64,000 bases of DNA, taken from positions 1,426,001 to 1,490,000 of the forward strand of contig NZ_CP050854.1 in the NCBI RefSeq assembly GCF_017569925.1, in the 5' to 3' direction. This DNA comes from Brenneria izadpanahii (GTDB lineage Bacteria; Pseudomonadota; Gammaproteobacteria; Enterobacterales; Enterobacteriaceae). The notes beneath the pieces were generated by a model. The model made no database searches, had not been told where the DNA came from, and saw nothing but the letters and a program-made list of their open reading frames with translations. The position numbers and the translations under genes are program-made. Below are positions 2,179-30,436 of this stretch, in pieces (positions within the stretch are counted from its first letter, which is position 1; every line of letters starts with the position of its first letter).

Positions 2179-3726
2179 TCAGCCATTCTGACTATCGGCC
2201 GGGCCAAACACCGGATACTCCGGCAACTGAAGCTGCTGATAGGGCTCCCAGCCGCCGCCCAGCGCCTTATACAAGGCGACCAGATCCAGGCTGCATTGTA
2301 CGCGCGCCAGGATGGCCTGCTGTTTCGCCTGGGAGAGCTGACGCTGCGCGTCCAGCGCGTCAATAAACGACGATAGGCCTTTGCTGTAGCCGTCGCTGGC
2401 CAGTTCAAATGCGTTTTGCAACGCGCCGACGCTGCGATCGAGCTCTTCAACCTGTTGCTGGTCGGTGCGATAGCTAACCAGCGCGTTTTCCACATCTTGC
2501 AGCGCGGTCAACACCGTCTGGCGATAGCCTAACGCCGCGCTGGCCTGTTCCGCCCGCGCCAGCTTGACGCCGGAGATCAGCCGCCCGCCCTGAAACAGCG
2601 GGATCGACACGGAGGGGCCGAAGCTATAGAAATGGCTGCTCCAGTTATCCAGATAGCTGGCGTCGGTATTACGCACGCCGAACTGGCCGGTGAGCGACAG
2701 ATCGGGGAACAGTTGCGCGATAGACACGCCGATATTGGCGGTGGCGGCATGCAGTTGCGCTTCCGCTTCACGGACGTCCGGTCTGCGTCTGGCCAGCGTT
2801 GACGGCACGCCGACCGGTACGGCTTTGGGCAGCGTCGGCAAGGATTTGTCCGCCGCCAGTTCGCCGTCAAGGGCGCCGGGAACCCGGCCGATCAGCACCG
2901 CCAGGCCGTTCATCGCCTGGCGTATCTGCGCTTGATACTGCGGCAGTTGCGCGCGCAGCGAACTAAGCTGAGCGCGGGCGTTCTCTACGTCCAACTGCGG
3001 CGCCAAACCGTTGCGCTGTTGGCTTTGGGTCAGTTCCAGCGTTTGCTGCGCGATTTCGATCTGGGTTGCCAGCGTCTGGCTGGCGGACTGCGCGCCGCGC
3101 AGTTGCAGATAGGTTCTGGCGACTTCCGCCTCCAGTGAGACCAGCGCATCGTTCCGGCTTTCAATCGACTGCTGCTGCTGGGCGTCGGCCATTTCAACCT
3201 GGCGGCGCACTTTGCCCCACAGATCCAGCTCCCAGGAGGCGTCGAAGCTGCCCTGGTACAGCCCGACTGGCTGAGTCAGGCTATCGAGAGCCGAATGCAG
3301 GTCGGGGTTGGCTTGATCCACCTGACTGTAAACATGGTGGGACTCCAGCAGTCCTTTCAGCCCCATTTGCTGACGTTTCGCCGACAAACCGCCGTTGACC
3401 GACGGCAGCCAGGCGCCGCGCGCCTGATTGAGCTGCTGGCGCGAACCGGCAATACGCAGCACCGCCTGTTGCAGAGTCAGGTTGCCGGCGATGGCCCGAT
3501 CGATCAGACCGTCAAGCTGCGGATCGTTAAACGATTTCCACCAGTTCGGATCGGTGGCCGTCTCCTGCGGTTTTGACGCGCTGTTCGATGCGATGTCATT
3601 GAACTTGCCTGGCGTGGCGGGAGTAGGCGCCTGATAATCGGGTCCGACCGAACAGGCCGACAGCGTCAGTAAGGCCGCCATCAACATGCCGGATCGTGAA
3701 TATGAAAATGATGGAGAAACCTTCAT
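2179..3726 (-). CDS. Outer-membrane efflux lipoprotein (NodT/OprM family)
   Basis: A 515-residue outer-membrane factor, the tunnel protein of a tripartite drug exporter. The start chosen is the ATG at 3726. It gives a lipoprotein signal peptide with the lipobox LSACS near residue 25, followed by SVGPDYQAP, which is characteristic of the NodT/OprM/CusC family; the mature protein would be acylated and anchored in the outer membrane. Two repeats of the outer membrane efflux domain follow. The start lies directly after the stop of the upstream emrB-like gene (TGACATG), so the two are probably translationally coupled in the operon emrA-emrB-OMF. Such a dedicated outer-membrane partner differs from E. 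coli emrAB, which uses the distant tolC. Confidence 0.9.
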   Translation of the reverse strand: MKVSPSFSYSRSGMLMAALLTLSACSVGPDYQAPTPATPGKFNDIASNSASKPQETATDPNWWKSFNDPQLDGLIDRAIAGNLTLQQAVLRIAGSRQQLNQARGAWLPSVNGGLSAKRQQMGLKGLLESHHVYSQVDQANPDLHSALDSLTQPVGLYQGSFDASWELDLWGKVRRQVEMADAQQQQSIESRNDALVSLEAEVARTYLQLRGAQSASQTLATQIEIAQQTLELTQSQQRNGLAPQLDVENARAQLSSLRAQLPQYQAQIRQAMNGLAVLIGRVPGALDGELAADKSLPTLPKAVPVGVPSTLARRRPDVREAEAQLHAATANIGVSIAQLFPDLSLTGQFGVRNTDASYLDNWSSHFYSFGPSVSIPLFQGGRLISGVKLARAEQASAALGYRQTVLTALQDVENALVSYRTDQQQVEELDRSVGALQNAFELASDGYSKGLSSFIDALDAQRQLSQAKQQAILARVQCSLDLVALYKALGGGWEPYQQLQLPEYPVFGPADSQNG

Positions 3727-3727
3727 G

Positions 3728-5296
3728 TCAGTGTGCTCCAGCGCTGCCTTTGCTCTTGATCGGCGCAAGCAGTAAACAAAACGGAATAAGAAGCAGGGCG
3801 ATAATACTCAGACCCCTGAAAATGTCGATGTAGGCAAGCATACGTGCCTGGACGATCATCTGTTTATACATTTGGCCGGTGGCGAGCGCGACGGGATCGC
3901 CCGCCATCGTGGAAAAATCTCTGATCGCATGCGCCCAGCGTTCAACCGTCTGGTTGAACGGCTCGTTCAGCGTGGACATGTTATGCACCATACTGGCGCT
4001 GTGCGCCTGCTGCCGTTCGGTAAGCATCGCCGTGGACAGCGAAATGCCGATCGATCCCGCCACGTTGCGGCACATGGTGAACAGCGCCGACGCATCCGCA
4101 TTCAGCCGCCGTGGAATGGTGACGAAGGCGATGGTGGTCAGCGGCACAAACAAAAAGCCGAGCCCGATAGTTTGCGCGCTGCGCATCAACACCAGCGTGG
4201 TGAAATCGATATTCGGCGCCAGCGTGGACGAATAGACAAAAGAGGCGGCCAGCGTGGCGAAGGCGCCGGCGATCATCCAGCGCGTTTGCACCAGCGGCAT
4301 CAGTTTTAACGCTATCGGGATAGTCAACACCACCAGTACGGCGCCCGGCGAGAGGATCATCCCCGACCAGGTGGCGGTGTAGCCTAAGTCCTGCTGCGCC
4401 AACTGCGGGATCACCACCGCGCTGGCGTACATAATCATCGCCATGCCCGCCATCAACACGCTGGAGGCCGCGAAGTTGCGGTCTTTCAGGCAGTAAAGAT
4501 CCACCACCGGCTTTTTGGCGTACAGCAGCCAGTAGACCGCCCCGACCAGACCGATGGCCGTCAGCACGGCAAAGGTGATGATAAAGTTGGAGTGAAACCA
4601 GTCGTCATCTTCGCCACGGTCGAGCATGACCTGCAAACAGCCCAGCCCAAGGGTCAGCAGGCTGATGCCGATATAGTCGATACTCAGCTTATCCTTCGCC
4701 ATCTTGCGCTCCCACGGCGGATCCTCAAGCAACTGATAGATGGCGAGCACGCTGAAAATGCCGATCGGAATATTGATGAAGAATACCCAGCGCCAGCTGT
4801 AGTTATCGGTGATCCAGCCGCCCAGCGTCGGGCCGAGCACCGGGGCGACGATCACCGCGATCGCCGCCAGGCCGAACGCCTTGCCGCGCTCTTCCGGCTT
4901 GAAGTAGTCCAGCAGCACCGATTGCTGCACCGGCTGCAGGCCGCCGCCGAAAAAGCCCTGCATCACCCGGAATAGGATGATCTGCCATAGCTCGGTGGCG
5001 ATGCCGCACAGAAAGGAGCAGACGGTAAACATCACGATGCAGATCAAAAAGAATTGCTTGCGGCCGAATACCCGGCTCAGAAACGCCGAAATGGGCAGCA
5101 CGATGCCGTTGGCCACCAGATAGGAGGTCAGTACCCAGGTGGACTCGTCATAGCTGGATGAGAGGGAGCCGGCGACGTGCGGCAGCGCCACGTTAACGAT
5201 GGTGGTGTCCAGGATCTCCATGAACACCGCAAGCGTCACCGTAATGGCCACCAGCCAGGGATTGCCCGCCGGCCGCCAGCTCTGATCCTGGCTCAT
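3728..5296 (-). CDS. emrB: EmrB/QacA-type DHA2 multidrug MFS transporter
   Basis: A 522-residue inner-membrane protein of the 14-helix DHA2 drug:proton antiporter family. Features seen are the family signature LDTTIVNVALPHVAG near residue 30, where the Asp sits in helix 1, an RVFGRKQ motif-A loop, and APVLGPTLGGWI, the antiporter motif C. The length matches E. coli EmrB (about 512). The ATG overlaps the 3' end of the upstream membrane-fusion gene by four bases (5293-5296), and the stop abuts the outer-membrane factor gene. It therefore supplies the energised inner-membrane pump of the three-component exporter. Substrates are not predictable from sequence; hydrophobic uncouplers, fatty acids or plant phenolics are typical for the family. 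Confidence 0.92.
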   Translation of the reverse strand: MSQDQSWRPAGNPWLVAITVTLAVFMEILDTTIVNVALPHVAGSLSSSYDESTWVLTSYLVANGIVLPISAFLSRVFGRKQFFLICIVMFTVCSFLCGIATELWQIILFRVMQGFFGGGLQPVQQSVLLDYFKPEERGKAFGLAAIAVIVAPVLGPTLGGWITDNYSWRWVFFINIPIGIFSVLAIYQLLEDPPWERKMAKDKLSIDYIGISLLTLGLGCLQVMLDRGEDDDWFHSNFIITFAVLTAIGLVGAVYWLLYAKKPVVDLYCLKDRNFAASSVLMAGMAMIMYASAVVIPQLAQQDLGYTATWSGMILSPGAVLVVLTIPIALKLMPLVQTRWMIAGAFATLAASFVYSSTLAPNIDFTTLVLMRSAQTIGLGFLFVPLTTIAFVTIPRRLNADASALFTMCRNVAGSIGISLSTAMLTERQQAHSASMVHNMSTLNEPFNQTVERWAHAIRDFSTMAGDPVALATGQMYKQMIVQARMLAYIDIFRGLSIIALLLIPFCLLLAPIKSKGSAGAH

Positions 5297-18481: not shown

Positions 18482-19123
18482 TTAGCAACCCACCCAGCAG
18501 ATGAGTTGATTTAATAATGAGGTCAACTCAGTTTTATTTTTCGTACCGGTTTTACCTAATATTATTTTTATACGCTGACGGGCATGTTCATAGGTAATAC
18601 CGATCATCTGCGCGGATTCGATTAAACTACATCCTTTTGCCAACAGGCGGCAAAGTTTCGCTTCAGTATTCGTCACCTTGTAAAGGTTCTTTAATAGATT
18701 TATATCCAGTTCTCCTTTGCGCAGGCTGGCATCTATTATTGAAAATAAAATCAATTCGGATGCATTTAATAAAGGATTGCCGAGATCTCTACTGATGCGA
18801 GTAAATTTTATAATTAAACTTTTAAAACCGCACTGTACCCCAAGCATTTGCGGCGAACCAAGCGGCGAGGCATTTAGCATTTTAACTTGCTCGACGATAA
18901 TATTATTCAATGCATCATTTCTGAAACTAATCAGCCCCTGACGACAGCGAACGAAACTCCCTTTAGAAATAAGCGTCTCAGCGTGAAAATTCATCTCGAA
19001 AAGTTTCATTTTTTCATCCACAACGAATGACGCGTCCGCTAAAGATAAGGAGATCGCCGCTTTCGCGGCTACACGCTGTCGTATGCTATTAACGCGTTTT
19101 TCTTCTACGGGAACTCTTAACAT
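18482..19123 (-). CDS. LuxR-type helix-turn-helix regulator
   Basis: A 213-residue protein with a C-terminal DNA-binding domain of the LuxR/GerE type at about residues 150-205: TNTEAKLCRLLAKGCSLIES, followed by a recognition region and KNKTELTSLL. The N-terminal 140 residues (probable sensor or dimer domain) match no family I recognise. The gene is AT-rich compared with its left neighbour. It lies 12 bp downstream of a small Ser/Ala-rich protein gene in the same direction, so the two are probably co-transcribed. Together with the MarT/FidL-like pair to the right it forms an AT-rich regulatory patch that looks horizontally acquired. Confidence 0.75.
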   Translation of the reverse strand: MLRVPVEEKRVNSIRQRVAAKAAISLSLADASFVVDEKMKLFEMNFHAETLISKGSFVRCRQGLISFRNDALNNIIVEQVKMLNASPLGSPQMLGVQCGFKSLIIKFTRISRDLGNPLLNASELILFSIIDASLRKGELDINLLKNLYKVTNTEAKLCRLLAKGCSLIESAQMIGITYEHARQRIKIILGKTGTKNKTELTSLLNQLICWVGC

Positions 19124-19135
19124 CTGCGAGAACCC

Positions 19136-19417
19136 TTAACTGCGGCGTGTGATTGATGATGCGGTAACGATTGCCGGGCAGCCGGCCATTGAAATATTGA
19201 ATGAGGATCCCCCGGCAAAATTTCCGACGCTGCTCAACGAGGCTGGAGATACATTACCCAGCGATACTGACGCGCTGGTTCCGCTTGAGTCCATCGAGTT
19301 GGCTGAATTAAGCGCTGTGCCAGTGAAATAAATAGCCTCGTCAGCAGTAGAAACGGTTTGCGCCACTAATCGAGCGTAGGCCGGAACAGCAGTCCGAATA
19401 ATGGTTGCTAATGACAT
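19136..19417 (-). CDS. Unknown small Ser/Ala-rich protein
   Basis: A 93-residue protein rich in Ser, Ala, Asn and Gly. No family recognised. It starts at ATG 19417 with a good ribosome site (GAAAGGG) and is followed after 12 bp by the LuxR-type regulator gene, which supports it being real and co-expressed. The composition, with long stretches of small polar residues (SGTSASVSLGNVSPASLSSV), one Cys and a basic tail (SITRRS), suggests an extended or secreted product, but there is no clear signal peptide. An opposite-strand frame (19149-19331) overlaps it and has no ribosome site, so it is treated as a shadow. Confidence 0.5.
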   Translation of the reverse strand: MSLATIIRTAVPAYARLVAQTVSTADEAIYFTGTALNSANSMDSSGTSASVSLGNVSPASLSSVGNFAGGSSFNISMAGCPAIVTASSITRRS

Positions 19418-19926
19418 AATATACCCTTTCTGTTAATAAAAAACTCTTCTCATTAATAAAGAGATATCTTTTTAAGGAAAAGTTCCTGGTGGTTGACCTT
19501 TGTAATTTCTGATTTTTTGAAATATTCAAATCAGAGAGTAAATTTTGTTTTTTGAGCCTGGTTTATTTTATCTATTTAGAATGTATGTATTCTGTTTTTT
19601 ACCTGTTCTATTTGTGCTGGATTGTATTTATCAATCTAACTTTATAAAAATGATTTTTTACTTAAGATTACTGAATTTATTCTTGAGTTATAGACGATTG
19701 ATGTGTTGATTATCACTTAATGAATTGTTTTTTATTGTGTTTTTTCATTAACTACGAGAGATGGGGAAATGATTGAAAGGAGGTGGGATATTTTAGTTAA
19801 GGGAATCGGTTGTTTTATATCGCTAAAGATCATTATCATACAGTGGATGTAAAGCTAGACAGAATGATTATTGGGGATCCTATTCGGTAGATGAGGCTGT
19901 TCCCTGTGTTACATTGAGATAATGTT
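19418..19926. other. AT-rich gene-free interval
   Basis: About 510 bp of strikingly AT-rich DNA between divergent genes, with long T and A tracts (for example around 19560-19750). No open frame of note. It must carry promoters for the leftward small gene and the rightward MarT-like regulator. Such curved AT-rich DNA upstream of transmembrane regulators is often bound by H-NS; that is inference from base composition only. Confidence 0.5.
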
Positions 19927-20829
19927 ATGTATAAGGTTTATCGTATTAATGGAGTGGTTGATTTTTATGTCAATAGAAATCAACTAAAATCGCTGATTAG
20001 CGATAAAACGGAGGTTCTTAATAAACCAGTAGGGCGCTGCCTGCTGCTGCTGATCGAGAAAAGATATGAAATTATTGAACAAGCGACTTTTTTCTCTGAA
20101 GTCTGGAATAAATTTGGCGTTTTTGTTACGCCTAATACTTTTTATCAAAATATTTCGCTACTAAGGAAAAGCCTTAGTGCCGTTGGTTTGGGCGATGACG
20201 TAGTAAAAACCGTATCGCGCAAAGGACTGATGCTTTCTCACAATATTGAAATAGAATTTATTGATTATGAAAGGAATTTTCTTTCGTCCAGCGCTGAGCC
20301 GGCTGAATGCCAACCGCTCTCCGATGCCGAGGTTGAACCAGCCGGCGAGTCTGAATTCATATCTGAATCGGAAGTTAGCGATGAACCTCAACTTGAACCT
20401 GAAGAACCTGAACCTGTCCTGGAGGAAAGGGGAGAGAGCGACGAGGAGATTCCTCGCCGGCGGACGGCGGGAAAAATACGTCATATAAGGTATTTATGGC
20501 TTATTGCGCTATTGATTTTCCTGATTGTATTGTCGTACGGTCTTCATCATTCGAACGTTCGCGTTAGCGGCTATTTTGATAATTACGCTTATCTTTTCGA
20601 ATATAAAGGATGTCATCTTTTTTCCAATGCCCTGGCGCCCAAAGGAAAAGTATTGAATATCATTGACAATGACGAGATTTCTTGTTCAGTGAATAAGTAT
20701 TCCTATATTACGACTTATGATTTTTCAATCGTGAGTTCTGTTGTGCAATGCCAGTTCGAGCTTGGTGATGAAAATAAGAATAATCATTGTGTATCACATT
20801 TATTTGTTGGCGAAGGAATGGAAAAGTGA
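19927..20829 (+). CDS. Membrane-anchored winged-helix regulator (CadC/MarT-like)
   Basis: A 300-residue transmembrane transcription factor. Residues 1-115 form a CadC/ToxR-type winged helix (FFSEVWNKFGVFVTPNTFYQ, then NISLLRKSL and VKTVSRKGLML). A long acidic linker rich in Glu, Pro and Ser follows (about 120-175), then a basic stop (PRRRTAGKIRHIR), one membrane helix (about 189-206) and a periplasmic tail of about 90 residues with several Cys. It overlaps the next gene in the form GTGA, so the two are translationally coupled. The pair matches the layout of Salmonella SPI-3 marT-fidL, in which MarT is a CadC-like activator. Targets here are unknown. Confidence 0.82.
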   Translation: MYKVYRINGVVDFYVNRNQLKSLISDKTEVLNKPVGRCLLLLIEKRYEIIEQATFFSEVWNKFGVFVTPNTFYQNISLLRKSLSAVGLGDDVVKTVSRKGLMLSHNIEIEFIDYERNFLSSSAEPAECQPLSDAEVEPAGESEFISESEVSDEPQLEPEEPEPVLEERGESDEEIPRRRTAGKIRHIRYLWLIALLIFLIVLSYGLHHSNVRVSGYFDNYAYLFEYKGCHLFSNALAPKGKVLNIIDNDEISCSVNKYSYITTYDFSIVSSVVQCQFELGDENKNNHCVSHLFVGEGMEK

Positions 20830-21293
20830 GGCGCGTTAATAAACATATCGTTATTATTTTATCGGTGACGATGATATTCTTAGTTGCGTTAATTTATATT
20901 TATCGCCCTAGACCGACAAAGTTATCTTGTGATGCGTCATTTGTTCTGCACAAAAACGGACACGTCATGAAATTATTAGTGAGTTACATTTTTCATGATA
21001 AAACCGGAATAGCTATGCTAAATGGCGCAGAGACCACGCCGGATGGCTTAACAATCACGCTGAACAGAAAAACGGTCTTCACCTATACGAATGTGAACAA
21101 TAGCTATTTCCTCACGTCAACGGACTCTTATGCAATGCCTAATCAGGTGGCTAATCCGGTTTTTAGCGAACAGTTGCCGGAATTCTATTTTAAAAAGGAT
21201 ATTAATTTTAATATTAATATATATCCGCAGGGTAATGAGGGGTGGGTTTTTTCAACCGATCCGGCGCCTTCGTTTCTGTGTGAAAAACGGTGA
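20826..21293 (+). CDS. FidL-like inner-membrane protein
   Basis: A 155-residue protein with one N-terminal membrane helix (about residues 7-24, VIILSVTMIFLVALIYIY) and a periplasmic domain of about 125 residues ending in PSFLCEKR. The start used is the GTG at 20826, whose GTGA overlaps the stop of the winged-helix regulator; a longer frame from 20787 would put coding sequence inside that gene. The layout and position resemble FidL, the small membrane partner of MarT in Salmonella SPI-3, and FidL-like proteins paired with CadC-type regulators elsewhere in enterobacteria. It probably modulates the signal-sensing tail of the regulator. Its base composition is AT-rich like its partner. Confidence 0.75.
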   Translation: MRRVNKHIVIILSVTMIFLVALIYIYRPRPTKLSCDASFVLHKNGHVMKLLVSYIFHDKTGIAMLNGAETTPDGLTITLNRKTVFTYTNVNNSYFLTSTDSYAMPNQVANPVFSEQLPEFYFKKDINFNINIYPQGNEGWVFSTDPAPSFLCEKR

Positions 21294-21364
21294 TATGGAA
21301 AAAGAGAGGCGTGGCGTAAAGCAAGGCGCCTCGCTTACTATTCGTCATCTCTTATTGGGGGGCA

Positions 21365-21730
21365 TTAACGGGCCAGCACGCTCATCGCCATAATAATCGG
21401 GCCGCCGACGGTGCGTTTTAATGCGCCAATAGCCAGCCCTTTCAGCAGCGTTTTGGCGCCCCGGCGAATCGTACTATCGATGTAATCTTGATCTTTGGTC
21501 GGGGTTAGCCAGCCAAGCCGTTCGAATTTTTCCAGCAATTCAGCGGCGGCGACTTTGCGGCTATCAAAACAGATAGCGACGGACCCGGCATAGATACGAT
21601 GAGTTACTTCCTGCACGCCATCTTGTAGATGCAATTCCCTGACGATCCGCTCTACCTGCTTGGGATTCCGCTGTATGTAGTCGGAGCGAACGCGAATACG
21701 ATTCTGAGTCTGGTGCAGGTAAGGTTTCAT
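21365..21730 (-). CDS. HMA-like domain protein of the P-ATPase locus
   Basis: A 121-residue protein. The N-terminal 75 residues look like a degenerate heavy-metal-associated domain (betaalphabeta pattern, RIRVRSDYIQRNPKQVERIV, then AGSVAICFDSRKVAAAELLE) with no CxxC metal-binding pair. The C-terminus is a basic, Ala/Gly-rich amphipathic segment (GAKTLLKGLAIGALKRTVGG) that may sit on or in a membrane. A ribosome site AGAGG precedes the ATG at 21730. It faces away from the P-type ATPase operon and is separated from it by the remnant of an unrelated gene pair. Two other proteins of that operon carry the same kind of domain, so a shared role is likely. Its metal partner is unknown. Confidence 0.7.
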   Translation of the reverse strand: MKPYLHQTQNRIRVRSDYIQRNPKQVERIVRELHLQDGVQEVTHRIYAGSVAICFDSRKVAAAELLEKFERLGWLTPTKDQDYIDSTIRRGAKTLLKGLAIGALKRTVGGPIIMAMSVLAR

Positions 21731-21905
21731 GGCGACCTCTGATAGGCAAATAACGATCTATGTGCAAATAACAATTTATATGCAAATAACAATGCGAATA
21801 ATTTACGTTACCACTCCTGGCTTGTCTACTTAGTTGGCAACGGAAACGCCGTTTTTGTGATCGGCCATCCCTGGCCGTCATCCTGCGGGCCGTCGCGGCG
21901 CGGCG

Positions 21906-22075
21906 TTATTGACCTACGGCGGGCAGAGCGGCATCGGCGATGTGGGCCATCAAACCCGTTTGGTTGGGCACGACATGGCCGGCCAGCACATGGCGATCCT
22001 GATAGTCGCCGCCGTTCTGCGGACGGAATGCAATCGGTGCGTCCTCGAACAGCCGTTCCACTCGGCTGCGCCAGC
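21906..22075 (-). pseudogene. C-terminal remnant of a flavodoxin-fold NAD(P)H oxidoreductase
   Basis: Reading leftward from about 22075, the last 55 or so codons before the stop at 21906 look like the tail of a flavodoxin-like NAD(P)H oxidoreductase: WRSRVERLFEDAPIAFRPQN, then GGDYQDRHVLAGH and NQTGLMAHI. The family normally has about 170-200 residues, and the N-terminal FMN-binding part is missing. The frame continues rightward only as antisense of the LysR remnant. The coding start and promoter are gone, so this is a dead gene fragment. The assignment rests on recalled similarity of the C-terminal pattern and is less secure than that of its neighbour. Confidence 0.5.
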
Positions 22076-22592
22076 GACACGCCTGGCCATCATGCAGAGC
22101 GTTCCTTCGCAAGTGGCGAGAAAAGCGGAGCAAGGCGACATCGATCTGGCCTCCCTCATCGGTTCCGAAGCGTCGCCAGATATGCGGCGCAGGCCGATGT
22201 TCACGGAACGCTATGTCTTGGCCGGCCGCGCCGGACATCCTCGTTTGACGCGCCGTCCAAGCCTGGCGCAGTTCTGCAAACTCGATCATGTCATCGTATC
22301 GCCGGACGGCGGCGGATTTCATGGCGTTACGGATACGGAACTTGCCAAACGGGGCATGACGCGCCGCGTCGTGCTATCCGTGCCGCATTTCCTGTTTCTT
22401 GACGCGGTGCTGACGAGCACCGATCTGGTCGCGATGGTGCCGTCCCGCTTGGTGCGCGGCAATACCGCGTTGCAAGTGGTCGAGCCTCCGCTCGACGTTC
22501 CCGGCTTCGAGATGCTCATGCTCTGGCCTGAACGGCTCCACCGCGACCCCGCGCATCAATGGTTGCGGGAACGCATCGCAAGCTCGGTATAA
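22068..22592 (+). pseudogene. C-terminal remnant of a LysR-family regulator
   Basis: The last 174 residues of a LysR-type effector domain read cleanly from about 22068 to the stop at 22592: TRLAIMQSVPSQVARKAEQG, then MRRRPMFTERYVLAGRAGHP, DHVIVSPDGGGFHGVTD and DPAHQWLRERI. This form is that of the NodD/SyrM-like subgroup with the GGGFHG segment. The DNA-binding helix-turn-helix and the first third of the effector domain are absent, and no start or ribosome site fits. It abuts, back to back, the tail of an opposite-strand oxidoreductase. The base composition is GC-rich, unlike the AT-rich patch just to the left. Confidence 0.8.
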
Positions 22593-22654
22593 ACGCCAGT
22601 ATCGGGGGCATCCGATAGATGATTCATATGCCCGCCCAATCTCCTTCGTCCCTT

Positions 22655-22675
22655 CGCCGCAAACGGCGTTTTTTT
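22655..22675 (+). terminator. Rho-independent terminator
   Basis: A hairpin CGCCG-CAAA-CGGCG at 22655-22668 is followed directly by seven T. It lies 60 bp after the LysR remnant and 140 bp before the P-ATPase operon. It probably ended the original LysR transcript and insulates the operon. Confidence 0.75.
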
Positions 22676-22817
22676 ACGCCGTACCTAACAAAAACTAAAG
22701 CTGCTTGATGAACCGCAAAGAATCCCCCTTCCATCGGCTGATAATGGCAAGGTCGTGTTTTTTTTCTGCTTGTCCGCTGTTAATTCTGGGCAGGTTTTCG
22801 CAGATGTAGGAAGCAGT

Positions 22818-23144
22818 ATGGAGTCAGAAGAGTTAAGCGGACTGATGATGTTGCGTCGCTTTGTTACGGTGGAACATCACATACCGGGGCGTATACGTTT
22901 ACGTTTCACTAACCGGTTGATCCCCAGTCTTGGCAAGGGAAAGCTGGAAAAACTGGAGGCGTTATGCCGCCCCGATGGTACGTTGCGTAGCTATAGCCTC
23001 AATGCGCATACCGGAAGTTTGCTGCTGGAATATGACGCGAAGCAAATCAATCCGGCGGTGCTGACGCAGCTTTTCGGCGCGGATGATACCGCGGCCCGGC
23101 AAGCGCTGGAACAGTTGATTCAGTCGCTCTCGCCGTCATCCTAA
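22818..23144 (+). CDS. HMA-like domain protein, first gene of the P-ATPase operon
   Basis: A 108-residue soluble protein. The start ATG 22818 has the ribosome site AGGAAGCAGT; an upstream ATG at 22755 would add an unlikely hydrophobic leader. It has a degenerate heavy-metal-associated fold with HHIPGRIRLRF near residues 20-31 and no CxxC pair. The motif HxxPGRxRLR recurs near the start of the P-type ATPase of the same operon, which suggests the two domains share ancestry or bind the same partner. It could deliver a cation to the pump or act as a regulatory subunit. It is the promoter-proximal gene of a five-gene set. Confidence 0.75.
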   Translation: MESEELSGLMMLRRFVTVEHHIPGRIRLRFTNRLIPSLGKGKLEKLEALCRPDGTLRSYSLNAHTGSLLLEYDAKQINPAVLTQLFGADDTAARQALEQLIQSLSPSS

Positions 23145-23161
23145 TCATTAAGGAAATGAAT

Positions 23162-23853
23162 ATGAGCAATGATAATAGCAATTCAGCCAATCAGGGGGAG
23201 CCTATTATCCGCCGTTTGGCTACCCATACTATCCGCCTGTCGCTCCGGCACCAGAGGCCGCCGCACCGCCCCAGCAACCGGTAATGTACTGGCCGCAACC
23301 GCCGATGTGGTATCCGCCGCAGATGATGCCGGGCTTTCCGCCGATGGGATACCCTATGCCGCCTCAACCCGGTACGCCGCCGCAGGCCATGACTCCTCCG
23401 CCATATCCCCACCATCATCATCACCCCCATACGCAGCCGCAGCCCGCTTTTGACTGGAACAGCCAGGCGCAAAATATGGTGGAAAACATGATGGGCGAAC
23501 AGGCCGGTATACTTAAAAACATCATCGGCGCCATCGGCATGGATGATAAGGAGTTCTGGAAAGGGGCGATGATCGGCGCGGCGGCGACGCTGCTGTTAAC
23601 CAATGAAAGCGTGCGCAATATGCTGCTGCAAACCGTCGCCAGCACCGGTGATTTACTCAAAACGGGCGGCGCTAAAGTTAAGGACGGCGTGAAGAGCGGC
23701 GCGGAAACGCTGAAAGAAACCGCTACCGCCAGTTCGACTATTTTCCGCGATACGCTGAAAGCGGGAAAAGAAGGCTTCAATGAATCGGTAGAGCGCCACC
23801 GCCAACAAGGACAGCCCGCAAGCGAGGAGCCGCACAATGAGCAACAATCGTGA
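23162..23853 (+). CDS. Tyr/Pro/His-rich membrane protein, frameshifted near its start
   Basis: A protein of about 230 residues. Its reading frame appears broken near the N-terminus: from ATG 23162 the frame MSNDNSNSANQG fails after codon 12. Adding one G to the G5 run at 23194-23198 would join it to a long frame (YYPPFGYPYYPPVAP and onward) that runs to 23853. An intact in-frame part starts at ATG 23284 (189 residues). It has a Tyr/Pro-rich N-terminal third with a cluster of five His (PYPHHHHHPH), a short helix (WKGAMIGAAATLLLTNESVR) and an amphipathic Lys/Ala/Gly-rich C-terminus like YtxH-type proteins. The His cluster could bind metal. No function is known to me. Confidence 0.65.
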
Positions 23854-24151
23854 CAGCCTGAGCCCGGTAAGCCGGGCGGTCATCGCGGGGGCGCTGGTCG
23901 GCACCACCGCGTCCTGCGTTGAGCAATGGCGTCGTTATCAGAACGGCGAGAAAACCCTGCATCAGACGGCCGCCGCCGTGGCGTGTGATGCGGCGAAAGG
24001 CGGTCTGGTGGGGGGCGCGGTGATGGCCGTAGCGAATGCCACCGCCGGCCGGCCGGTTTTGACGTTGCTGACGTTGTTGAGCGCCGGCGCCGCCGGTATC
24101 TATCTGATGGATGCGATCGGTAAAAAGGATGCAGATAATGAAACAGCCTAA
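23837..24151 (+). CDS. Small Gly/Ala-rich membrane protein of the P-ATPase operon
   Basis: A 104-residue protein with two probable membrane helices (about residues 13-30 and 68-90) of the glycine-zipper kind, AGALVGTTAS and GGLVGGAVMAVANATAG. A single Cys lies near residue 27. The strong ribosome site GAGGAG is inside the 3' end of the preceding gene, and the two overlap by 17 bp; its own 3' end overlaps the next gene by 14 bp. The tight overlaps show one operon. No family is recognised with confidence. Related small proteins are found beside metal P-type ATPases in some bacteria, as far as I recall. Confidence 0.7.
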   Translation: MSNNRDSLSPVSRAVIAGALVGTTASCVEQWRRYQNGEKTLHQTAAAVACDAAKGGLVGGAVMAVANATAGRPVLTLLTLLSAGAAGIYLMDAIGKKDADNETA

Positions 24152-24431
24152 CTATCCGTATGGATACTACCCGTATTACGCGCCTTATGCCCCGGCGCCG
24201 CAAACGCCGTATCGCCAGGCCGACGGCCGAGCGCACTTGATTACCGGCGTGGTCGCCGGAGCCGCCATTGCCTATTTGCTCAGTAATCGTGAAGTTCAGC
24301 AGGGCATCACGACAACGGCCAGCAAGGCATGGGGCACGGTGCGTGGCGAAGTGGAAGAGTTAAAAGAACGGTTAGCCGATTTACAGGCTGAACTGGAGTA
24401 TTACCGTAGCCGTGAACAGGATGCTGAGTGA
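24138..24431 (+). CDS. Tyr/Pro-rich YtxH-like membrane protein
   Basis: A 97-residue protein. It has a Tyr/Pro-rich N-terminus (PYGYYPYYAPYAPAP), one helix (LITGVVAGAAIAYLLSNREV, about 34-53) and a C-terminal coiled coil (EVEELKERLADLQAELEYYR). The architecture repeats that of the larger His-rich protein two genes upstream (Tyr/Pro N-terminus, membrane helix ending LLxNxxV, amphipathic tail), which suggests an internal duplication in the operon. The start ATG 24138 lies inside the 3' end of the previous gene. Its stop overlaps the GTG start of the P-type ATPase, so it is coupled to it. The coiled coil may hold it against partner proteins. Confidence 0.72.
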   Translation: MKQPNYPYGYYPYYAPYAPAPQTPYRQADGRAHLITGVVAGAAIAYLLSNREVQQGITTTASKAWGTVRGEVEELKERLADLQAELEYYRSREQDAE

Positions 24432-26518
24432 TCTCTCATTTGCCTGAAACCATTACGTTGGTTCATCAATTGCCGGGGCGGGTACGTTTGCGCATTCCGC
24501 AGATACGGCGCTACCCGCAAAGTTTGGCCTGGCTGAAACGTCAGTTGCTCTCTTTTCGCGGCGTTAACGGGGTACGTCTGCGCCCTGAAGCCTGCTCAGC
24601 CGTCATTACTTACGATCGCCAGCAGACCAAAGGCCAAACCCTGCTGCAAAAAGCGCTGGCGTTGGACTGGCAGGCGAGCGCGCCGGGCGATTATGACGCG
24701 GAATATAGCAGCAGCGATAATCTAATCAACCTTGGCGGCATCGCGCTGGCTTGGCTGCTGCCCGGAAACTGGGCCGCGCTGCCGGCCTTGGCGCTCACCG
24801 CGCCCACGTTGGCGGAAGGGGCGGAGAGCCTGGCTCACGGCCAGTTGAAAGTGGACGTGCTGGACGCCATGGCGCTGGGTTTGTCCATGGCGCGGGGCGA
24901 TCACCGTACGGCGATGATCACCCAGTCGCTGTTGACGTTGGGCGAGTATCTGGAGCAGGAAACCAGCCGTCATTCCGATGCGCTTCTGGCCGATCTGATG
25001 CAGCCCAGAGAGCACCCGGTCTGGGTTGAGCGGCAAGGCGTGCGTGAAGAAATTCAGAGCGGCGAGTTGGTCAACGGCGATCTGATGTTGCTGGGGCCGG
25101 GGGACAATATCCCCGCCGACGGCGCGGTTCTGCGCGGCGTGGGGCTGATTAATCAGTCCTCGATGACCGGCGAAGGCGTACCGGTACGCCGGGAGCGCGG
25201 CGCCTGGGTTTATGCCGGCACACAGGTGCAGGACGGCAATATCGTCGTTCGCGCCGAGCGGGTCGGCGATGAATCCTCCACGGCCAATATCCGGCGTTTT
25301 ATCAGCGAATCTCTGAGTCAGCGCAGTGAAACGCAGCGCGTGACGCAACAAATGGCCGATCGGCGGGTCGCCATCACTATGGGCGTCGGCGCGGCGGTTT
25401 TCGCCTTAACCCGTGACTGGCAACGCCTGGCCGCCGTCTTCCTGGTGGATTATTCCTGCGCCCTGAAGCTAAGCACGCCCATTGCCTTTAAATCGATCAT
25501 GAGCCGGGCGGCGCGTCAGGGACTCCTGCTGAAAGGGGGACGGGCGATTGAACAACTGGCCGCGATCGATACCGTGGTGTTTGATAAAACCGGCACCCTG
25601 ACGCATGGAGATATGCAAGTGACCGATGTCGTCAGTTTCGATCCGCAAAAAGCCTGGGCCGAGCGCTTGCTGGCGATTGCCGCGTCCGTTGAGGAACACA
25701 GTAATCACCCGTTGGCGAAAGCGGTGGTTGCGGCAGCGGCGCACCATGCGTTGCCGCACATCAATCATGGCGAAGTGGAATACGTTATTGCCCACGGTTT
25801 ACAGTCCGAAATGGACGATCATCGTATGGTGGTGGGGAGCCGTCATTTCCTTAGCTGCCATTATCAGATTGATTTTTCAGAATTTGAAGATGAGATCGAC
25901 AGGTTGGAGTCGCAGGGGCGTCACCTGTTGTTCATCGGCCTGGATGAACGGCTGGTCGGCATGATCGGCCTGCAAGACAACGTGCGGCAAGAGGCCGCGC
26001 AGGTGATCCAGCGCCTGCGTCAACAGGGAATAAAAAATATCGTGCTGCTGACCGGTGATAAAGCCGAGAAGGCGCGGCAGCTGGCGCAGGAATTATCCAT
26101 CGACCGTTTCTTTTCCCAGGCGACGCCGGAAAGCAAAGTCGATGTGGTGCGCGATCTGCAACAGCAGGGCCATCGGGTGCTGTTTATCGGCGACGGCATC
26201 AATGATGCCCCGGTATTAACCCAGGCCGATGTGGGCATGGCGATGAATCAAAGCACCGAGCTGGCGCAGCAGGCCGCCGATGCCGTATTGCTGCGGGATA
26301 ACCTCGAAGGGGTGGTGACCGCCTGTGAAATGGCTCAGGAAGCGATGCGCCTGGTTAACAGCAATATCCGCCTGACGGAGTGGGTGAATAGTTCGATTAT
26401 GCTGGCGGCGGCCATGGGCTGGCTGAAACCGGCGGCCAGCGCGTTATTGCACAACGGCACCACGCTCGGCGTGTTACTGCGCTCGCTGGCGGCAAAAAAC
26501 CGCAAGTATCCAGACTGA
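24428..26518 (+). CDS. Atypical P1B-type (heavy-metal) ATPase
   Basis: A 696-residue membrane pump starting at GTG 24428, overlapping the previous stop (GTGA). Residues 1-80 hold a degenerate HMA-like domain with HQLPGRVRLRIP and no CxxC. The ATPase core is complete: TGEGVPV in the actuator, the phosphorylation motif DKTGTLT, the HP dipeptide in EHSNHPLAKAVV typical of metal P1B pumps, and GDGINDAP. In the transport helix, where P1B pumps carry CPC, SPC or CPx, this protein reads YSCALKLSTP, so the metal site has one Cys and no adjacent Pro. The ion transported cannot be inferred from known classes. It is the last gene of the five-gene operon. Confidence 0.9.
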   Translation: MISHLPETITLVHQLPGRVRLRIPQIRRYPQSLAWLKRQLLSFRGVNGVRLRPEACSAVITYDRQQTKGQTLLQKALALDWQASAPGDYDAEYSSSDNLINLGGIALAWLLPGNWAALPALALTAPTLAEGAESLAHGQLKVDVLDAMALGLSMARGDHRTAMITQSLLTLGEYLEQETSRHSDALLADLMQPREHPVWVERQGVREEIQSGELVNGDLMLLGPGDNIPADGAVLRGVGLINQSSMTGEGVPVRRERGAWVYAGTQVQDGNIVVRAERVGDESSTANIRRFISESLSQRSETQRVTQQMADRRVAITMGVGAAVFALTRDWQRLAAVFLVDYSCALKLSTPIAFKSIMSRAARQGLLLKGGRAIEQLAAIDTVVFDKTGTLTHGDMQVTDVVSFDPQKAWAERLLAIAASVEEHSNHPLAKAVVAAAAHHALPHINHGEVEYVIAHGLQSEMDDHRMVVGSRHFLSCHYQIDFSEFEDEIDRLESQGRHLLFIGLDERLVGMIGLQDNVRQEAAQVIQRLRQQGIKNIVLLTGDKAEKARQLAQELSIDRFFSQATPESKVDVVRDLQQQGHRVLFIGDGINDAPVLTQADVGMAMNQSTELAQQAADAVLLRDNLEGVVTACEMAQEAMRLVNSNIRLTEWVNSSIMLAAAMGWLKPAASALLHNGTTLGVLLRSLAAKNRKYPD

Positions 26519-26621
26519 TGACAAAGCCAATTATTACTCGCCGCGGGTATCTCGGCTTTACAGACAGGTTTGCCTGCAAACTCAAGTCTCCTGATTTGCC
26601 ACAGCGATAAGAGACAACAAT

Positions 26622-27185
26622 TTGATTATTGATAATAAAGCATTTGAGAAAAATGGACTGACCTATGTCATTCGCTCCGCCATTGCCGCCGATGCGAAAG
26701 CGTTGTCTGCCTTAAGGCCGCAGATCGATGGCGAGACGCAGAATATGGATCGGCAGCGCGGCGAGGGTTTTATTGATGCTCCGGGCTTTGAACGGTTAAT
26801 TCGGATGGATACGGCCAGTCCGGTGAATTTATTTTTGGTCGCCGTCGTCGATAAACGACTTGTCGGTTTTTCGCGCTGCGAAGGATCTAACCTCGCGCGG
26901 CTGGCGCATAAGGTCGAATTTGGCGTGTGCATGCTGAAGGATTTTTGGGGATACGGCATCGGGAAAAACTTACTACAAACATCTGTCGCCTGGGCTGACG
27001 CCTGCGGTATCAAAAAGATGGCGCTGAGCGCGTTGGAAACTAATGTCAAGGCGATTGAACTGTATAAAAAATTGGGTTTTGAGGTTGAGGGCATACTGAA
27101 AAACGACAAATTGCTTGCCGATGGAAAGTATTACAACACTATTGCGATGGGGCGCTGCCATGACATCGAAAGCGCGTTTCGTTGA
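26622..27185 (+). CDS. GNAT-family N-acetyltransferase
   Basis: A 187-residue enzyme of the GNAT fold that transfers acetyl from acetyl-CoA to an amine. The CoA-binding region is seen near residues 108-125 (KDFWGYGIGKNLLQTSV, the R/Q-x-x-G-x-G/A loop). A C-terminal ALETNVKAIELYKKLGFEVEG segment (about 140-160) is the standard GNAT end. The start is the TTG at 26622; no better ATG is in frame. The substrate is unknown; protein N-termini, aminoglycosides and polyamines are all possible. It stands alone, 103 bp after the P-ATPase stop, and shares a terminator with the convergent permease gene. Confidence 0.85.
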   Translation: MIIDNKAFEKNGLTYVIRSAIAADAKALSALRPQIDGETQNMDRQRGEGFIDAPGFERLIRMDTASPVNLFLVAVVDKRLVGFSRCEGSNLARLAHKVEFGVCMLKDFWGYGIGKNLLQTSVAWADACGIKKMALSALETNVKAIELYKKLGFEVEGILKNDKLLADGKYYNTIAMGRCHDIESAFR

Positions 27186-27221
27186 GAGCGGCGGGGCGGA
27201 TAACCGGGTTCTGAGCGCAAA

Positions 27222-27258
27222 GAAGGCCCGGTTTTCGCATAACGCCAACCGGGCCTTC
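27222..27258. terminator. Bidirectional hairpin terminator
   Basis: Perfect 12-bp arms GAAGGCCCGGTT and AACCGGGCCTTC with a 13-nt loop, placed between the convergent acetyltransferase and permease genes. It can serve both strands. Confidence 0.75.
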
Positions 27259-27274
27259 CGCAATACGCCGTTTA

Positions 27275-28618
27275 TTAGTGCTTAACCAATGTCGCGAAGT
27301 AGTAAACCAGCGGCACGGCCATAATCCACAATCCGATAGGAATTTCCCGCCACTTGCCGGCGATGGCCTTGATAAGAATGTAAAACAGCAGGCCGCCCGC
27401 AATCCCGGTGCCGAAGCTGTTGGCGATCAGCGTGATCATCACCATCATCAGCACCGGCAGCCCGTCGGTGAAATTGCCGAGATCGACTTTCCGTAATCCG
27501 CTGAACATATTCAGGCCAATCAGGATCAGCGCCGGCGCCGTAGCTTCTTTGGGGATCATCAGCGCGACGGGCGTGAATAATAGCATCAATAGAAACATGA
27601 TTGCGGCGGCCAGCGCGGTCATGCCGCTTTTGCCCCCGGCTTCGGCGGCGGCGGAAGATTCAATCAGCGCCGTCGCCGCTGGAATGCCGACCCACGGCCC
27701 CAGCGCGGCGGCGATGGAATCCACCATAAACGGACGGTTGATCAGCGGCATGTTGCCTTCTTCGTCCAGCAGGCCCGCCTCGCCGCCCACCGCCAGCGTC
27801 GTGCCCATGGTTGAAAAAAACTCCGAGGCGAAAAAAACGAACAGGAACGGCAGGAAAGCAATATTCAGCGCGCCCAACATATCGATATGGCCGAGAACCG
27901 GGGCCAGCGAATGGGGCAGCGCGATGAAACTTTCCGGCAATTTCGTGACGCCGGCCGGTATGCCGACCAGCGTGGCAAACAGAATGGCCCACAGGATGGC
28001 GCCCGGTATGCGCCGCGCCTGTAGCGCAATCGCCAGAAACAGTCCGCATAGCGCCACCAGCGCGCCCGGCGAAAGGAAATTGCCCAGCATCAGCGCGCTG
28101 GTCTTGGCGTTGGCCAGCACCAGACCGGCGTTGCGAAAACCGAGTACCGCCACAAACAGGCCGATAGACGCGGTTAATCCCAGCTTAATGGATTGCGGAA
28201 CGGAGCGCGTCACCACTTCGCGCAGGCCGAATTTCGTTAGCAGAAAGAATAAAATCCCGGACCAGCAGGCGATGCCGAGGCCAATTTGCCAGCCGATGCC
28301 TTCGCTTCCGGCCAGCGTCACGCCGACCAGCACCGAGCCGCCAATGCCCGGCCCGACGATAAACGGCAGGTTGGCGTAAAACGCCATCAGGAGCGTCCCG
28401 GCCACAAAGACCAGAATGGTGCCGGTGGTGGCGGCGCCTTTGTCTATGCCGCCGACGGCCAGCAATCCGGGGATCACCACCAGCAGGTAAGCGGCGGCAA
28501 GAAAGCCGGTGACGCCGGCCAGACATTCTGTTTTTGCCGTACTGCCGCGGGAGTACAACGCGAAACGGCGTTCTAACCAGCTCCCTGGCGCTGGCGTGTT
28601 AACGGTATTATCGGCCAT
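27275..28618 (-). CDS. Purine permease, AzgA/NCS2-type (adenine/hypoxanthine family)
   Basis: A 447-residue inner-membrane transporter of the AzgA-like branch of the NCS2/nucleobase-cation family, which includes E. coli AdeP, AdeQ, GhxP and GhxQ. Seen are the N-terminal segment STAKTECLAGVTGFLAAAYL, the glycine-rich GPGIGGSVLVGVT, and IESSAAAEAGGKSGMTALAA, typical of this branch. About 12-14 helices. It lies 27 bp downstream of adenine deaminase in the same direction, so it should bring in adenine (or hypoxanthine) for that enzyme. Specificity within the branch cannot be told by eye. Confidence 0.88.
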   Translation of the reverse strand: MADNTVNTPAPGSWLERRFALYSRGSTAKTECLAGVTGFLAAAYLLVVIPGLLAVGGIDKGAATTGTILVFVAGTLLMAFYANLPFIVGPGIGGSVLVGVTLAGSEGIGWQIGLGIACWSGILFFLLTKFGLREVVTRSVPQSIKLGLTASIGLFVAVLGFRNAGLVLANAKTSALMLGNFLSPGALVALCGLFLAIALQARRIPGAILWAILFATLVGIPAGVTKLPESFIALPHSLAPVLGHIDMLGALNIAFLPFLFVFFASEFFSTMGTTLAVGGEAGLLDEEGNMPLINRPFMVDSIAAALGPWVGIPAATALIESSAAAEAGGKSGMTALAAAIMFLLMLLFTPVALMIPKEATAPALILIGLNMFSGLRKVDLGNFTDGLPVLMMVMITLIANSFGTGIAGGLLFYILIKAIAGKWREIPIGLWIMAVPLVYYFATLVKH

Positions 28619-28645
28619 TATCCGGCTCTCCTGTTGCTCTTCTAT

Positions 28646-30436
28646 TTAGTGTTGTGGTTGGTCTGGAATTTCCCGCCAGTCGATAAGCGGGTCGATAATC
28701 TGTCGCGTGGCGCCGTCCGTCAGGCCAAGATCGGTCAGATGCGGGCCTGCGTTGCAGGCAAGGCAGGTTCCCTCAATGGCCTTAAACACGCGGTAGGGCG
28801 GCTCCCAGTCGGCGATATCGTTACTGCGTTCACGCAATTGACGAAACTGAGCGGCCAGCTCCGCCGCCGGCAGATCGGACAGCATACCGGCTATCGGCAT
28901 CGCCACGTGCGCGATGATGTCGCCATTCCTGGCCAGCGCCATGCCGCCGCCGCTGTCGATCAGACGATTTGCCGCCAGCGCCATGTCAACAGGATCGCGC
29001 CCCAGAACCACCAGGTTATGCGAATCGTGCGAGTAGCTGGTGGCAATGGCGCCGCGCAGTTCGCCCCAGCCTTCCAGCAAGGCCATCTGCGGCTGCGCCG
29101 CGTGACGGCCGTGGCGATGCCGTACCCAGATCAGGCTGAAGCCGTCCGGCAATCGCACCTTGCCATCGCGCACTTCGACTTCTTTTTCTCCCCATTGGGT
29201 AAAGCGCGCCCCGCGGATATGCCGCAGGCGGGCAACGCCGTGGCGCAGCGTGGCGATGCGCATAATAAAATCATTATCCGTCACCGGCGCAAGACGCAGG
29301 GTATCGCGCGGAGGAAGTACGTTTTCCGGGCCGCTGATGCCGTTTAGCATGGCGCCGTTGTCGGCGGTAAGCTTGCCGGCGACGTAAACCCGCCGCGCCT
29401 GAAGTTTCTCCAGCGAGTCGAAAACCACCAGATCCGCGCGCCGGCCGGCGGCGATCAAACCAAGATCGTTGCGACGCAGCCGAATCGCCGCGTTCAGCGT
29501 GGCGAATCGCAGCGCATCCATCGCCGGCAAGCCGTGTTCAATCAGCAAGTTGAGCAGGGCGATAACGCCGCCTTTTTCCAACAGCATGTCGGGCGGAACA
29601 TCATCGGTGCAGACGGTAATTTGCGACGACAGATGCGGCAGGGTTTTCAGCGCCGCGACGATATCAGGCAACAGATAGGGATGAGAACCGCGTATTTCGA
29701 GGGTTAACCCGGCGCGCAGCTTTTCCAGCGCGTCGTCGGCGGAAGTCAGTTCATGATCGGAAGTGACGCCCGCCGCCAGATAAGCCTGTAAATCTGCGCC
29801 GTGCAGACCGCGCGCATGGCCTTCAATCAGTTTACCGCTGGCAAGGCCGGCATGAAGAATTTCCATCATGCGTTCGCTGCCGTGTAGTACGCCGTGCATG
29901 TCCATCACTTCCGCCACGCCGGATACCTCAGGCCAGCCGAGCATGACCGCCATCTCTTCGCCGGCGAAGTCGGCGCCGGACATCTCCAGTCCGGGCGTGG
30001 AGGGCACGCTCGACGGCGCGGCGACCATCACCTGCAGCGGCAGGCCGCGGCTGGCGGCAACGGCATAGCGCACCCCTTCAACGCCCAGTACATTGGCCAG
30101 TTCATGCGGATCCCAAAACACCGCGGTGGTGCCTTGCGCCAGTACGATCTCGGCGTAGCGCGCCGGCGGCAGGTGCGAACTTTCAAGATGTACGTGGGTG
30201 TCCATCAAGCCGGGCGAGAGATACGCCTTCGCAAGATCGTGAATTTCCCCGGCGTCAGTGCGGCTGCCGCGCGGATGAACGCTGGCGATCAGTTCCCCGA
30301 CAATCCCGACGTCCGCATCGCGGATCTCCCCGGTCGCCATATCGACAACCCTGGCCTGGGTCAGCAACAGATCGAAGGGGCATTCTCCCCTGGCGGCCAG
30401 TACCGCGCGTCGGCGCGTGTCTGCTGTAACGCTCAT
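28646..30436 (-). CDS. ade: Adenine deaminase
   Basis: A 596-residue amidohydrolase converting adenine to hypoxanthine and ammonia. It shows the metal-binding DTHVHLESSHLPPARY near residue 78, the HARGL segment near 200, TSDHE near 225 and the domain-closing ADLVVFDSLE near 345, in the order of the E. coli Ade/YicP family (length about 588). It is the first gene of a two-gene unit with the purine permease. A PurR box lies about 50 bp upstream, and a divergent LysR gene sits 131 bp away, so purine repression and possible LysR control are both suggested. In E. coli ade is normally silenced by H-NS; nothing here shows that. Confidence 0.94.
   Translation of the reverse strand: MSVTADTRRRAVLAARGECPFDLLLTQARVVDMATGEIRDADVGIVGELIASVHPRGSRTDAGEIHDLAKAYLSPGLMDTHVHLESSHLPPARYAEIVLAQGTTAVFWDPHELANVLGVEGVRYAVAASRGLPLQVMVAAPSSVPSTPGLEMSGADFAGEEMAVMLGWPEVSGVAEVMDMHGVLHGSERMMEILHAGLASGKLIEGHARGLHGADLQAYLAAGVTSDHELTSADDALEKLRAGLTLEIRGSHPYLLPDIVAALKTLPHLSSQITVCTDDVPPDMLLEKGGVIALLNLLIEHGLPAMDALRFATLNAAIRLRRNDLGLIAAGRRADLVVFDSLEKLQARRVYVAGKLTADNGAMLNGISGPENVLPPRDTLRLAPVTDNDFIMRIATLRHGVARLRHIRGARFTQWGEKEVEVRDGKVRLPDGFSLIWVRHRHGRHAAQPQMALLEGWGELRGAIATSYSHDSHNLVVLGRDPVDMALAANRLIDSGGGMALARNGDIIAHVAMPIAGMLSDLPAAELAAQFRQLRERSNDIADWEPPYRVFKAIEGTCLACNAGPHLTDLGLTDGATRQIIDPLIDWREIPDQPQH

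Follow-up and report, generated by a model that had tools for sequence, protein, structure and literature searches.

The window analysed here, a stretch of 64,000 nucleotides from the 5.33-Mb, single-contig genome of Brenneria izadpanahii (NZ_CP050854.1, positions 1,426,001 to 1,490,000), carries at its positions 21365-26518 a group of six genes that includes an atypical P-type ATPase and that is discussed below as a probable ferrosome (fez) cluster. A check of the open reading frames of the window upheld the coordinates and frames of the group. The labels hmaC, hmaN, PYH (Pro/Tyr/His-rich) and PY (Pro/Tyr-rich) were coined in this analysis. On the minus strand, hmaC (21365-21730) is divergent from the other five genes and encodes a small HMA_2-like protein without CxxC (HQTQNRIRVRS) that ends, as judged by eye, in a hydrophobic or amphipathic helix. 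The plus strand begins with hmaN (22818-23144), whose small HMA_2-like product (HHIPGRIRLR) is also without CxxC, and continues with PYH (23162-23853), which has one hydrophobic helix (FWKGAMIGAAATLLLTN), with the gene of a two-helix Gly/Ala membrane protein that appears to be a homologue of the MamC family (23837-24151), with PY (24138-24431), made of a Pro/Tyr-rich N-terminus, one hydrophobic helix (GAAIAYLLSN) and a charged C-terminus (VRGEVEELKERL), and with the ATPase gene (24428-26518), which starts at GTG and encodes 696 amino acids. Overlaps of 17, 14 and 4 bases join the last four genes, in agreement with an earlier note on this DNA, which had described one membrane system, seemingly co-transcribed, around the ATPase.

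The three HMA_2-like domains of the group, namely those of hmaC, hmaN and the N-terminus of the ATPase, have in common the motif H-x2-[P/Q][G/N]R-x-R, and none contains CxxC, as the earlier note had also claimed. Their scores with PF19991 (HMA_2) are 29.5, 31.5 (on the frame 22755-23144) and 30.9 bits, which places hmaC just below the cut-off of 30. When the complete genome was searched with this model in all six frames, the best three matches were the same domains (33.3, 30.0 and 27.9 bits; the next reached 14.3), and among 14 control genomes weak matches (E <= 1) were found in seven and matches over the cut-off in none. The two Pro/Tyr-rich proteins resemble each other in the core GAA..LL[TS]N..V (hhalign 68%, E 4.8e-5, 24 columns; the PY alignment, A10, has eight rows), and both match YtxH (PF12732) below its cut-off of 37.5 bits, PY with 21.7 bits on the frame 24111-24431.

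Conservation of the cluster and class of the ATPase

Six peptide patterns, scanned over a collection of genome contigs covering 84,980 species, returned 49 stretches, among them 16 distinct named loci in Brenneria, Hafnia, Budvicia, Pragia, Kluyvera, Limnobaculum, Photobacterium and Vibrio. These loci are close relatives, with ATPases 54-89% identical, and each of the 16 keeps all six genes with order and orientation unchanged. Because of this conservation a chance association of the six genes is excluded, and the genes do travel together, a point on which the earlier note had called for a survey of gene neighbourhoods. The ATPases of the window and of Brenneria goodwinii share 96% identity. 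The distribution of the cluster is patchy: its ATPase is present in 8 of 59 genomes of relatives (its own included) and in four of nine within the genus, and in the family of one other cluster genome (G728) the two-helix gene was found in 14 genomes out of 121. Wider surveys, in which only the best three (class) or two (phylum) candidates per genome were scored, gave 20 ATPase matches at E <= 1e-80 among 369 genomes of the class, with the window's own genome and G304 as the only ones of fez type and the remainder at no more than 316 bits with motifs CPC, SPC or other, and eight matches at E <= 1e-120, own included, among 398 genomes of the phylum. Two clusters in Magnetococcales (L061 and L062) hold five of the six parts, that is, hmaN, PYH, PY, the ATPase (43-44% identical) and hmaC, and their sixth part is a different two-helix protein (hhalign 0.6% against the family of the window).

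Several observations were made alongside this survey. The ATPase gene is split over two frames in two distant loci (L066:5960-8045 and L065:6234-8375). A protein of 150 amino acids with a conserved KSPPCKRCPALSNGICKCAAKKF-like Cys motif at its C-terminus lies near the cluster in loci that include Vibrio and Photobacterium (L029:3268-3720, L026:3368-3817, L068:4694-5125 and L067:14276-14671), and its Vibrio furnissii copy has no match in Pfam or NCBIfam. Two candidate vehicles were rejected: a plasmid-borne element, as the ATPase had a single match at E 1e-150 among 72,556 plasmid records, a 1.7-Mb Vibrio replicon, and an element carried by Escherichia coli, as the operon DNA matched none of 20,395 E. 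coli records (blastn).

The ATPase is composed of an N-terminal HMA_2-like domain (residues ~6-74) followed by the E1-E2 ATPase (PF00122, 123 bits) and HAD (PF00702, 119 bits) domains, and it also exceeds the NCBIfam cut-offs of TIGR01525 (496 bits) and TIGR01512. The translated frame bears out the atypical make-up described in the earlier note, as the catalytic core of P1B pumps is present (DKTGTLT, TGE, HP and GDGINDAP) and SCALKLSTP takes the place of CPx in the membrane helix that precedes DKTGTLT; the last helix carries LLHNGTT. The fez-type rows that were read follow the membrane pattern [SA]C[AG][LI][KR][LI][SG]TP, in which the window fits the SCA type and four Magnetococcales rows read [SA]CGIKISTP. 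Invariant positions in 44 aligned rows are C344, T350, P351 and the pair H675-N676 of the last helix, and K347 is kept in more than 90%. The AlphaFold model (predicted local distance difference test, pLDDT, 82; predicted template modelling score, pTM, 0.73) has Cu- and Zn-P1B pumps (4bbj and 4umw) as its best matches in the PDB, and the solved chains closest by sequence are pumps for Cu, Cd and Zn.

A maximum-likelihood tree of 46 rows separates 20 fez-type rows, picked by similarity (the window and 19 others), from 26 other P-type rows, the host genome's own CPC-type pump among them, with branch support of 100/99. The nearest rows to the fez-type group are those of unusual motif (L046, L049 and L052), and some end branches are long. 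In the reference set, made up of CPC, SPC and unusual types, CPH and TPC rows were not noticed and P1B-5 and P1B-6 were not represented by name; it is with respect to this sample that a distinct P1B group formed by the window ATPase and its relatives, apart from the CPC and SPC pumps, is well supported by the sequences. On these grounds the ATPase is identified, as a likely counterpart, with the ferrosome pump FezB. P1B-6 is the class of FezB, and SCA-type is the name of the P1B-6 membrane metal motif; on this background and by its motif the protein would be called a P1B-6 pump.

Six distant loci (L061-L066) were read for their neighbours, and in two of them homologues of the cluster genes come directly after feo genes. 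The order in L064 is feoA, feoB, feoC, PYH, PY, ATPase, with Pfam scores of 61.8 (FeoA), 214.5 (FeoB) and 68.1 bits (FeoC); in L066 it is feoB, feoC, PY and the ATPase in its two frames, with FeoB at 219.7 and FeoC at 75 bits and an HMA_2-like match beyond feoB. The earlier note had left both the metal and the role unassigned, which no longer holds because the ATPase is a member of the separate P1B group identified with FezB and falls in what we take to be an established class whose ion is known. Little has been learnt about the accessory proteins, and the note's description of the system as little-studied is still fair. The transported ion would be Fe(II), to which the feo adjacency in two relatives and the listing of P1B-6 pumps with Fe(II) point indirectly (PMC7558416, Table 4; papers are cited by their PubMed Central, PMC, numbers).

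The regulatory sequences of the 16 named loci were compared with a 15-letter Fur consensus, which singles out those of Photobacterium damselae and Vibrio furnissii alone: these loci (L026 and L029) score 12 of 14 consensus letters, a value reached by 4 and 3 of 500 shuffles, and the other 14 score 9-10 of 14, which is not significant, the shuffle shares being per locus across 16 related loci. A 19-letter consensus picks out the same two loci, with Pragia and Limnobaculum borderline (shuffle shares of 0.05 and 0.045). A conserved block upstream of hmaC (21788-21806, plus strand), found in alignment A8 across genera of Enterobacterales, is a candidate Fur-type operator. An FNR site upstream was considered and rejected, as no locus rose above its shuffles (the lowest share, 0.09, came from the window, to the right of the insertion described below).

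A relative of MamC within the cluster

The two-helix protein was compared with MamC, a protein of magnetosomes, by two routes. At E <= 0.1 the NCBIfam model NF038051 (MamC) matches 13 of 13 two-helix rows, which come from the window and from 12 named loci out of the 16, with a best E of 1e-7 and 0.007 for the window; all fall far short of the equivalog cut-off of 100 bits, the best reaching 33, which makes these proteins homologues and not equivalogs. In Magnetococcia, 13 of 48 genomes matched the model, and the 11 MamC proteins that exceeded its cut-off were aligned; against this alignment hhalign gave 96.3% and E 1.9e-9 over 80 ungapped columns with 29% identity, and the controls PY and PYH gave 0.3% and 0.5%. 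In searches of whole genomes, which covered eight cluster genomes (G000, G002, G019, G011, G030, G728, G638 and G035) and left G004 and G007 aside, the genome-best MamC match was the two-helix gene in all eight. The match is weak in G000, the window's own genome (E 0.088), and in G002 (E 0.084), which is within the range of the controls: among 14 control genomes some match at E <= 1 occurred in eight and none at E <= 0.01 or 0.001. The window's own match by itself would prove nothing, and no MamC match was obtained at the locus in G304 and four Magnetococcales genomes. Taken together, the comparisons give good support to a homology between the two-helix protein and magnetosome MamC.

Two acidic residues of the MamC loop, Asp66 and Glu70, bind magnetite (PMC6206293). 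When they are assigned, by their spacing, to D50 and E54, both invariant in the 11 MamC rows, the first of the corresponding places appears acidic in none of the 13 two-helix rows and the second in eight. A structural model of the two-helix protein (mean pLDDT 58) was too poor for use.

The MamC family is wider than magnetosomes, given that 3 of 321 gamma-proteobacterial genomes have matches with E <= 0.001, of which two exceed the cut-off, and that the 9-15 kb read by eye around these genes, the rest of the genomes not having been searched for magnetosome genes, contained no fez or obvious magnetosome neighbour. The link to MamC is, judging by these sequences, not exclusive to organelles. Genes of the family outside fez clusters were recorded at L115:7444-7806, L116:1356-1718, L112:7432-7809 and L113:7522-7821; the L115 and L116 copies score above the magnetosome cut-off and have, by eye, a cysteine-desulfurase-like gene ~4 kb away.

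A literature search found no published statement of a homology between MamC and a ferrosome protein; the primary ferrosome papers were outside its reach, and such a statement may already be in print. Whether MamC and the two-helix protein of the gamma-proteobacterial ferrosome cluster go back to a single ancestral hairpin in the membrane of iron-filled vesicles seems to us an evenly balanced question. If they do, ferrosomes and magnetosomes would have a common component facing the lumen, which would be an evolutionary bridge between both iron organelles, the MamC kind being tuned to crystals and the ferrosome kind lacking one of the two acids that bind them, namely the first.

The ferrosome reading and its alternatives

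The locus is very probably a six-gene ferrosome (fez) cluster. The homology of its two-helix protein with MamC ties it to an iron-mineral organelle, and the formation of ferrosomes in this strain, as well as the role of each accessory protein, is predicted from the genes. According to work by Grant and colleagues from 2022, the six-gene fez operons of Rhodopseudomonas palustris and Shewanella putrefaciens reportedly suffice for ferrosomes in foreign hosts. In R. palustris CGA009 ferrosomes are made from six fez genes, RPA2333-2338 (PMC12016538). FezB is described as a putative ferrous iron transporter and FezC as a heme cytochrome, DUF4405-like (PMC11334425). In Clostridioides difficile, FezA and FezB (CD630_05910-05920; PMC11651100) are required for ferrosomes and are repressed by Fur (PMC12574912).

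A mechanism can be proposed in which FezB would pump cytoplasmic Fe(II) into the lumen of small vesicles that arise from the inner membrane. The HMA_2-like domain of the ATPase, together with hmaC and hmaN, all without CxxC and with a basic R-x-R turn, might guide FezB, the vesicle surface or iron instead of thiol-bound Cu or Zn, and PY, PYH and the MamC-like hairpin might shape and line the vesicle, with His clusters and acidic residues of the lumen as possible iron ligands. Cells would assemble this store when iron is limiting and oxygen low, and load it once iron returns.

Two other functions have to be weighed, neither of which involves an organelle. The names given by NCBIfam ('heavy metal translocating' and 'cadmium family', from TIGR01525 and TIGR01512 over cut-off) and the database label 'P-type Zn(2+) transporter' of close relatives suggest an efflux pump for Zn, Cd, Co, Ni or Mn in the plasma membrane, served by accessory chaperones. 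These models, however, are class-wide, the ATPase falls outside the sampled CPC and SPC groups, and in two distant relatives its gene follows feo genes; moreover, the Pro/Tyr-rich and MamC-like proteins are unlike efflux chaperones, and CxxC is found in none of the three HMA_2 domains, all of which makes a heavy-metal pump very unlikely. An exporter of Fe(II) in the plasma membrane, detoxifying iron in the manner of the P1B-5 pump Nia, a transporter of Ni and Fe (PMC4932525), with the accessory proteins organising a membrane domain and no vesicle, would draw on the same evidence for the ion as a ferrosome does. Against it are the six fez genes that build ferrosomes in R. palustris (PMC12016538) and the presence here of one accessory protein of the MamC organelle family, and it is considered highly improbable.

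A separate matter is the state of the cluster in this strain. The coordinates of the earlier note hold, with two amendments to its layout. PYH most likely begins at 23162. Its first ~40 codons, from 23162 to ~23283, are out of frame with the open part (23284-23853), the counterpart of the N-terminus of its relatives being divided over two frames, and the gene is in one frame in 16 of 16 named relatives and in L069, the locus of G002. The gap between the divergent HMA_2 genes measures 1.09 kb in the window versus 140-270 bp in the 16 named loci, and it is not ancestral, because of these shorter gaps and because the window holds remnants of an inserted gene pair. The remnants (21906-22592), which are outside the system, are an abutting pair of C-terminal pieces, one quinone-reductase-like (minus strand) and one of a LysR regulator (plus strand; LysR_substrate 81 bits, no helix-turn-helix match). 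In L069 the quinone-reductase-like (named by eye) and LysR genes are complete (2478-4255) and occupy the same place between the divergent genes, and in Brenneria roseae and B. alni the gaps are just 267 and 255 bp, without room for the pair or trace of it. It is possible, if on balance doubtful, that the cluster of this strain is decaying and no longer works, as would be suggested by the break near the 5' end of 23162-23853, absent in the 16 named relatives and L069, and by the insertion remnant between the divergent genes; this would be compatible with ferrosomes in the family as a whole. Then again, the remaining five frames are open, the ATPase keeps its catalytic motifs, the conserved core of PYH is open from an in-frame ATG at 23284, and the frame break may be an assembly error.

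Several results weigh against a ferrosome cluster at this locus. S. putrefaciens, R. palustris, Desulfovibrio magneticus and C. difficile are absent among the names in the best 120 matches listed for each protein search; the identity of these genes with those of species proven to form ferrosomes is therefore something that we infer. The adjacency to feo is confined to two of the six distant loci, inspection by eye of the stretches read having shown no feo gene in the other four, and none was seen by eye in the parts read of five named loci. The Fur score of the window is 9 of 14 letters, reached by 216 of 500 shuffles and not significant, and a DUF4405 cytochrome of the FezC type is not over the cut-off (26.7 bits) in the genome, which has one match of 18.3 bits elsewhere. 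This strain, finally, has a frame break close to the beginning of PYH and an interrupted promoter region between the divergent genes.

Surroundings and comparison with known iron organelles

The cluster adjoins, on its left side, a frame for a membrane regulator (19927-20829) with a Trans_reg_C N-terminus, CadC-like by eye, which is overlapped by the gene of a short protein (20787-21293) with no Pfam or NCBIfam match over cut-off. Downstream, on the minus strand, the segment 27275-30436 holds, by eye, genes for a purine-permease-like membrane protein and an adenine-deaminase-like protein.

With the ferrosome reading, a so far nameless operon, labelled 'heavy metal pump', that occurs in Brenneria, Hafnia, Kluyvera, Budvicia, Pragia, Limnobaculum, Photobacterium and Vibrio would be connected with iron-storage organelles. 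The kind of system is known, a ferrosome cluster newly placed in Enterobacterales, and the relationship with MamC is a fresh observation that offers a testable handle on the roles of the accessory proteins and on how ferrosomes and magnetosomes are related. Of what the earlier note had held would overturn its proposal, an established class with a known ion for the ATPase has probably been found, whereas characterised accessory subunits have not.

The closest comparison is with the fez clusters of R. palustris and S. putrefaciens, which also have six genes and a P1B-6 ATPase at their core; their genes are presumed orthologues of those in the window, where one gene (21365-21730) is divergent. 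Among the best 120 rows of a search with a profile of Shewanella ATPases, eight carry a Shewanella name, in no case that of S. putrefaciens. The fez systems of C. difficile and D. magneticus differ in that FezC is a DUF4405-like cytochrome (PMC11334425), a protein for which the window genome has no match over the cut-off. Genes of the feoABC system for the uptake of ferrous iron precede the ATPase genes in two distant relatives and were not seen by eye beside the window locus (19000-29000). With MamC, the two-helix protein of the window family aligns collinearly, and it differs at the mineral-binding acids and in scoring below the 100-bit cut-off. The fez systems of C. difficile and D. magneticus also have fewer genes than the cluster of the window. 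In both, as may be the case here, a FezB transporter and a membrane protein are needed for ferrosomes (PMC12574912, PMC11334425).

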